This document shows, in pieces, positions 34,779 to 35,187 of a stretch of 64,000 bases of DNA. The DNA comes from Agaribacterium sp. ZY112. GTDB lineage: Bacteria > Pseudomonadota > Gammaproteobacteria > Pseudomonadales > Cellvibrionaceae. The stretch spans positions 186,001 to 250,000 of the forward strand of contig NZ_CP166840.1 in NCBI RefSeq assembly GCF_041346925.1, in the 5' to 3' direction. The notes under the pieces were generated by a model, which saw nothing but the letters and a program-made list of their open reading frames with translations, was not told the DNA's origin and made no database searches. The position numbers and the translations under genes are program-made. The first letter of the stretch is position 1. The number at the start of each line of letters is the position of its first letter.

Positions 34779-34825
34779 TGCTATCCAACAGCCAGTTGCT
34801 CAGGAAGTGTACATTCCGGCGCTGC

Positions 34826-34919
34826 AGTGATATTACTTTTCTTGGCTCGCCGTAAACCCATCCTTGGGGGCTCAACCGCGTCATCTATGACGCAGATGGC
34901 CAGTCAAAGCAATATCACT
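34826..34919 (-). repeat. Palindromic element copy A (structured intergenic repeat)
   Basis: Outer arms AGTGATATT (34826-34834) and AATATCACT (34911-34919) are perfect inverse complements, and pairing extends inward through CTTT/AAAG and TGGC/GCCA with a small internal loop. Inside on the minus strand is a 7-bp hairpin GCGTCAT/ATGACGC (34893-34878), followed by a conserved string with GAGCCCCC and GGGTTTACGGCG. The core (34836-34896) aligns with the core of copy B read on the other strand. I do not recognise it as REP, ERIC or BOX. Confidence 0.75.
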
Positions 34920-35006
34920 ACAACACCTACCTATGTGCCAAAACAAAATGCAACACAGTCGAAACAATAGAGCGAACTATCGATGCTGCAAATCGGCACA
35001 AAACTA

Positions 35007-35116
35007 GGTCGGGCGAAGACAAGAGCTTGAACGGGTGTCTGTGGCATGGATGCCACGGCCAAGCCCCCATGGACGGGTTCACGGCGTCCCGAGAAAGCCC
35101 TTGCCTTCACCCGACC
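35007..35116 (+). repeat. Palindromic element copy B (structured intergenic repeat)
   Basis: Outer arms of 22 bases (35007-35028 and 35095-35116) match at 19 positions as inverse complements; the three exceptions become G-U pairs if the minus strand is transcribed. Inside are a perfect 7-bp hairpin GTGGCAT/ATGCCAC (35041-35056), the string AAGCCCCCATGGACGGGTTC, and a GGACG/CGTCC stem (35071-35089). The core 35038-35097 is homologous to copy A but reads on the opposite strand. Confidence 0.78.
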
Positions 35117-35142: not shown

Positions 35143-35166
35143 CAAAAACGCCCCTCGAAAGGGGCG
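35143..35166 (-). terminator. Intrinsic terminator of gltB-gltD
   Basis: On the minus strand CGCCCC and GGGGCG flank a 6-base loop and are followed by TTTTTGT. It starts 21 bp after the gltD stop. Confidence 0.88.
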
Positions 35167-35187
35167 CTTAGAAAATCAAATCAGGGA

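Follow-up and report, generated by a model that had tools for sequence, protein, structure and literature searches.

Two divergent hairpin elements between hemE and gltD of Agaribacterium sp. ZY112 belong to a dispersed repeat family with putative CsrA sites

Our main finding is that two hairpin elements on opposite strands of the hemE-gltD gap of Agaribacterium sp. ZY112, here called W1 and W2, belong to a family of repeats scattered over this genome and a number of others. We consider it somewhat better than an even bet, with a probability of roughly 0.55, that this family is a dispersed and partly mobile group of structured RNAs of the TwoAYGGAY type that carry putative CsrA sites. The repeat family, its structure, its covariation and its strand-specific wobble pattern are established by computation, and so is the fact that two relatives have recently copied the unit. 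CsrA binding is the function that fits best, and we infer it from the loops together with published specificity; transcription and function are likewise inferred. What is new here is the mostly divergent pairing of the copies, their copy-specific outer stems and their multiplication inside unrelated MITE-like repeats in two relatives.

Results

The two copies in the window

The window is a stretch of 64,000 nucleotides (186001-250000) of a genome that forms a single contig of 4.28 Mb. Both genes flanking the gap lie on the minus strand, with Pfam matches to URO-D (hemE) and to glutamate-synthase small-subunit-type domains; the second we take to be gltD. A terminator-like hairpin (35146-35169) adjoins gltD in the same gap as both elements. 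The top match of the window's hemE in the named genome collection is that of Cellvibrionaceae bacterium AOL6 (87%), and the gap is about 412 bp here versus 112 bp in AOL6 (locus L107). These lengths fit an insertion of the 299-bp pair, and the AOL6 gap was considered as an empty site; we dropped this candidate, as inspection by eye shows no alignment of the two gaps past the terminator.

An earlier note, made from the letters of this DNA alone, had described two homologous copies of one structured element on opposite strands of the gap. This is borne out, with 110 nt for each copy: W1 occupies 34818-34927 on the minus strand (5' end at 34927) and W2 occupies 35007-35116 on the plus strand. The repeat is longer than the note had claimed, and the outer stem, the ANGGAN loops and the TTYAC bulge were absent from its description. 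Each copy consists of a 22-column outer stem, a short inner helix, hairpin 1 and hairpin 2 with a 5-nt bulge. The outer stem is perfect in W1, where the 5' arm at 34906-34927 pairs with the 3' arm at 34818-34839, and interrupted by mismatches in W2 (5' arm 35007-35028, 3' arm 35095-35116). Hairpin 1 of W2 (35039-35058) has the hexaloop ATGGAT at 35046-35051, while that of W1 (34876-34895) has lost its GGA and has the loop ATAGAT at 34883-34888. Hairpin 2 of W1 (34849-34871) carries the hexaloop AAGGAT at 34860-34865 and a TTTAC bulge at 34852-34856. In W2 hairpin 2 (35063-35085; hexaloop ATGGAC at 35069-35074, TTCAC bulge) was located via the family alignment; when W2 is folded by itself, the minimum-energy structure includes only the CCC/GGG part of this hairpin, and the family fold is less stable by 1.3 kcal/mol.

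The cores of the two copies (W1 minus-strand 34896-34836, 61 nt; W2 plus-strand 35038-35097, 60 nt) agree at 46 positions, in keeping with the earlier hand count of about 46 of 60, and the best of 19,834 random 60-mers from the window reached 43 identities with the first core. The two compensated pairs that had been noticed in hairpin 1 are present in the alignment (C-G/T-A and T-A/G-C). Over the whole W1 fold, 17 pairs are changed on both sides and paired in both copies; four others fail in one copy, two of them changed on both sides and two on one. When the elements are compared with their orthologues in the relative G003, nine doubly compensated pairs are seen for W1 and one for W2, and five changed pairs of W1 are unpaired in one of the two orthologues. 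Folding z-scores for the GGA strand, relative to dinucleotide shuffles, are -8.28 for W1 and -4.55 for W2. For W2 the opposite strand scores -7.14, and the better-folding strand for both elements is the minus strand, that of gltD and hemE.

Size and distribution of the family

Further copies came to light in a covariance-model search of the kind that the earlier note had proposed. The model was built from seven copies of the own genome, which match by construction, and it finds 27 matches there at E<=0.01 (these seven included) and 31 at E<=10. When the 31 are compared the arms differ from copy to copy and mainly the core is common, apart from about 93-94% identity over at least 100 bp within locus L191; no near-identical copy of either window element is among them. 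In the search of relatives 16 of 29 genomes, the own one included, have a match at E<=0.01, with a highest count of 65 reached by one congeneric genome, and 13 have none. Across the class the distribution is patchy: 34 of 232 genomes (own included) have a match at E<=0.001 and 198 have none, the copy counts being lower bounds as no more than 16 candidates per genome were scored.

Among 80 named hemE loci, 17 have matches at E<=0.01 (31 in total) and nine have a divergent pair. Microbulbifer sp. HZ11 has such a pair, 89 bp apart, in its own gltD-hemE gap. At eight hemE loci, seven titled Marinobacter and one a Halomonas MAG, the divergent pairs are spaced 514-629 bp; wide pairs downstream of hemE are those of L166 (5113-5885), L182, L164, L178, L172, L155, L167 and L185. 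The space between the elements holds a PilZ-domain gene in L166 and a similar ORF in L182. By eye, the arms of these wide pairs vary by species at the site.

Other routes to the family gave little. A pattern search with the core and two mismatches was nearly useless (170+159 matches versus 157+132 in the reversed control), and the W1/W2 pair was unmatched in phage records. Searches of the open-licence literature on the repeat itself, and on CsrA in connection with either repeats or transposable elements, brought up no description, the available portion of PMC9788540 included.

Covariation and the folding strand

Covariation was assessed on 129 matches at E<=0.05, drawn from the window together with 75 regions chosen for their hits to the model. 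Hairpin 2 has the consensus AGCC-NNN-[ANGGAN]-NNN-TTYAC-GGCGT, and its pairs were counted on the 97 rows with a core of exactly 28 nt (73 distinct; the remaining 32 rows excluded). In the 73 distinct sequences 96.1% of cells are paired; none of 500 shuffles exceeds 84.2%, and sliding the hairpin by one or two columns gives 23-51%. Doubly changed cells number 63, versus at most 28 in the shuffles. Since the model that found the copies itself contains the structure, some lean toward pairing is possible in these numbers. A set of 42 rows gives 97.6% paired versus a shuffled mean of 79.0% and 49 double changes versus 16.2 expected, with no shuffle reaching either measure; two further measures are weaker and were equalled by 8 and 126 of the 500 shuffles. 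The outcome that the earlier note had named as refuting, neither further copies nor covariation beyond these two, did not occur: covariation of hairpin 2 is far above both the shuffled and the slid controls, and the note's claim that a folded form is kept holds.

The wobble pairs of the arms can help to tell which molecule folds; the arms were aligned at the DNA level, with one and the same penalty for every mismatch. On the GGA strand we count 172 G.U versus 52 A.C (128 of the 129 elements). A structure-free 28-nt model, blind to the arms, was also run on ten genomes, and 27 of its 29 loci were used (those with a listed strand). Palindromic arms (score of at least 10) are present in all but one of these 27 core-selected copies versus 40 of 1424 random places, and the copies show 33 G.U and 9 A.C (p=2.7e-4). 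The counts are 29 and 13 in own-genome copies outside the training set (n=20, one tandem copy excluded) and 12 and 9 in the elements at named hemE loci (n=31). The arms of W2, with no G.U and three A.C, run contrary to the family trend. Grouped by flanking genes, the G.U:A.C ratio is 38:15 for elements sense to both neighbours (n=34), 58:23 for those antisense to both (n=45), 27:7 for those overlapping a predicted ORF (n=23), 29:5 between convergent genes (n=15) and 21:5 between divergent genes (n=12). Since the bias is alike in sense and antisense elements, read-through from neighbouring genes does not explain it.

The excess of G.U over A.C, seen also in copies selected without regard to their arms, indicates that one strand folds, in an RNA or in a single-stranded DNA stage. 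A folded single strand, most likely RNA, is thus probably what is kept rather than the extruded double-stranded DNA that the earlier note had offered beside RNA, though a single-stranded DNA stage would produce the identical bias.

Loops

The hairpin-2 loop is close to invariant outside its two free positions (A 71, N, G 71, G 72, A 72, N in the 73 distinct sequences). Hairpins with an ANGGAN hexaloop occur twice in 82 of the 129 elements, three times in two, once in 38 and not at all in seven; thus 84 have at least two and 45 fall short by the rule used. No such hairpin occurs in the 129 reverse complements, and at least one is present in 19 of 645 shuffles. The median distance between loop starts is 23 nt (n=84). 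Both hairpins of W2 have such a loop, while in W1 only hairpin 2 does. According to the available parts of two reports, the loop specificity of RsmN/RsmA and RsmE is ANGGAN (PMC3791407, PMC7652899).

A csrA match was found in 28 of the 29 genomes of the relatives search, the own one included; being near-universal, its presence is little informative. The relative G006, which has a high-copy 136-bp repeat, has nine csrA matches, and G023, with 37 hits to the family model, has one.

Layout and copying

Neighbouring copies less than 1 kb apart are divergent in 33 of 39 cases (gaps of 23-154 bp), convergent in four and tandem in two, a divergent excess with p=8e-15 against a one-in-four expectation; 77 of the 129 elements are in such pairs. 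The spacer of the W1/W2 pair (34928-35006, 79 bp) contains an inverted GTGCCA (34935-34940) and CGGCAC (34994-34999), and inverted GTGCCA...TGGCAC-like boxes lie in the spacers of several pairs, a few nt before the hairpin start. A reading of the TGGCAC box as a sigma-54 promoter was rejected on inspection by eye, since its -12 part does not fit the consensus and 26 of the 129 5' flanks have the box in exact form.

In G006 the whole hairpin is contained in a 136-bp unit, and 40 matches at 88-99% identity, 37 of them end to end, came from scoring 40 of 93 candidates. The flanks are unrelated in all 20 copies fetched out of 53 core hits. By eye, TA stands at the left end in 27 of 28 copies and at the right end in 27 of 28; no target-site duplication of at least 3 bp was seen in the 28, and a TA duplication is possible. 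In G003 the core lies inside a different repeat whose copies are, by eye, often in terminator loops with direct repeats of about 9-10 bp. At least six shorter copies there are without the 102-bp segment that holds the core, and the two forms are compatible with a 102-bp insertion or deletion between AAGCT repeats. Near-identical, sharp-ended copies at unrelated sites, as expected of a MITE, are thus present in both G006 and G003, and since the surrounding repeats differ the module has at least two sets of ends. A mobilising gene was not evident among the translations at five own-genome loci, and nine genes that neighbour elements have ordinary Pfam matches. Nesting of elements of similar type is seen at four loci (L227 5166-5323, L307, L299 and L201 5655-5806), where the GGA loop of a larger element harbours an insert of about 48 nt with two GGA hairpins of its own.

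Discussion

Known relatives of the family

The earlier note had not recognised the element and had proposed a search of Rfam. At gathering scores the window has no hits; below them W2 resembles two families, TwoAYGGAY (RF01731) on the plus strand (23.1 bits, E=0.41, cut-off 43) and Ysr224 (RF02770) on the minus strand (27.2 bits, E=4.6e-4, cut-off 70), while W1 matches neither at E<=10. The element can therefore be placed near named families, if not within either by score. The best own-genome copy reaches 40.3 bits with TwoAYGGAY, and the cut-off of 43 is passed in 4 of the 29 genomes of the relatives search, in G023 (43.5 bits) at a site that our model also matches. Ysr224 is above its cut-off in none of the 29, and neither family has a match in 14 control genomes. 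Another relative, G007, has 12 TwoAYGGAY matches and no hit to our model, and may represent a further subtype within the family.

Like TwoAYGGAY, the window family has in many copies two hairpins with AYGGAY-type loops, and it shares a long and poorly conserved outer stem, a similar string 3' of hairpin 2 and G.A mismatches in the outer stem. W2 has both loops (ATGGAT, ATGGAC), and W1 has one, AAGGAT in hairpin 2, with ATAGAT in hairpin 1. The family differs in that hairpin 2 is short with a TTYAC bulge, and the available passages of the TwoAYGGAY accounts say nothing of a high copy number, of paired copies or of a MITE setting. TwoAYGGAY was earlier proposed as CsrA-binding, in the accessible text of one report (PMC4333381). 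Two ANGGAN hairpins and the string AGCC-TAC-ATGGAT-GTA-TTTAC-GGCGTC appear when the Ysr224 consensus is reverse-complemented. The Rfam model describes the other strand, and the reverse-complemented consensus, folded alone, has a different minimum-energy structure. A stretch resembling part of this reverse complement is found in 26 plasmid records, between annotated genes in the two of two that were inspected. Ysr224 stands fourth among the 20 most prevalent sRNAs in one table of a survey, as far as its available part goes (PMC9029176).

The CsrB/CsrC/RsmX/Y/Z sRNAs are similar in having GGA hairpin loops that could titrate CsrA, but there one sRNA gene has many sites and here short two-site units are dispersed. 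By their general descriptions, REP/BIME and ERIC would be set apart from the window family, which is a far longer double hairpin with copy-specific stems; REPIN we presume to belong with REP/BIME among the short alternating palindromic repeats. The available text of one paper describes REP/BIME as short palindromic repeats in alternating orientation (PMC2817692). The YPAL / RU-2 repeats of Yersinia, set beside the window family by description, are likewise intergenic, folded and mobile, and their targets are said in part of another paper to span or adjoin dyad symmetry (PMC2229807).

Weighing the explanations

Under the CsrA reading, the long copy-specific outer stem would close the junction of two hairpins whose hexaloops are typically ANGGAN, and the GGA strand, when transcribed, would fold and offer two CsrA/RsmA sites about 23 nt apart that a single CsrA dimer could bridge. 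Against this reading count the lost GGA of W1, the better fold of W2 on its other strand and its arms free of G.U, a wobble bias that is alike whatever the direction of the genes, the 12:9 ratio at the named hemE loci, the 45 elements with fewer than two ANGGAN hairpins, the five changed pairs of W1 and its orthologue that are unpaired in one of them, and the patchy distribution. The family may instead be a MITE-like palindrome whose hairpin, as single-stranded DNA or RNA, serves its own movement, with the loops as recognition sites of a mobilising enzyme and unrelated to CsrA. The full-length expansion in G006 with TA by eye at each end in 27 of 28 copies, the G003 unit in terminator loops with its direct repeats of about 9-10 bp (by eye), the wobble bias that is independent of gene direction and the divergent pairing in 33 of 39 cases would all suit such an element. 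A recognition site for movement does not readily account for a core that has different ends in different genomes, for the freedom of both N positions of the ANGGAN loop or for the corresponding positions downstream of hemE in several Marinobacter species, and we regard this explanation as rather unlikely.

We hold it to be less probable still that the elements are mRNA stability or termination hairpins in which the folded stem alone matters. Long stable stems do lie between co-directional genes, for S-adenosylmethionine synthetase and adenosylhomocysteinase in one case and for methionyl-tRNA synthetase and Rnf-Nqr in another, and there is precedent in palindromic repeats reported as mRNA stability determinants in Neisseriae and Yersiniae, to go by the available part of that report (PMC2267715). 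However, a stem that acts by its stability leaves unexplained the near-invariant A-GGA loop and the TTYAC bulge, as well as the copies that are antisense to both neighbours (45 of 129). The arm covariation could also come from template-switch correction in a DNA cruciform or quasi-palindrome, without selection on a folded single strand, and the arms are indeed copy-specific and some near perfect. This we find very improbable, as a process in double-stranded DNA has no reason to favour G.U over A.C on one strand and hairpin 2 covaries as well.

What the finding would mean

Individual copies, if they do bind CsrA, would be local CsrA sites in transcripts and collectively a distributed CsrA sink; in their spread they may have been carried by small MITE-like repeats or have acted as such repeats themselves. 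A broader form of this reading, which we put forward only tentatively, is that in the Gammaproteobacteria several small mobile repeats, unrelated to one another, have come to carry the two-site CsrA/RsmA module, and that dozens of scattered and often divergently paired sites may make up a distributed, evolvable CsrA sponge in a genome; Ysr224 would then be this module seen from its other strand. Should CsrA indeed bind the elements, mobile repeats bring ready-made sites for a global regulator, and dozens of these could be gained or lost as the repeats transpose. Two Rfam families would also be given a possible role, with the other strand as the relevant one in one of them, and this would help to explain the frequent annotation of Ysr224 in the genome survey, as its available part presents it (PMC9029176).
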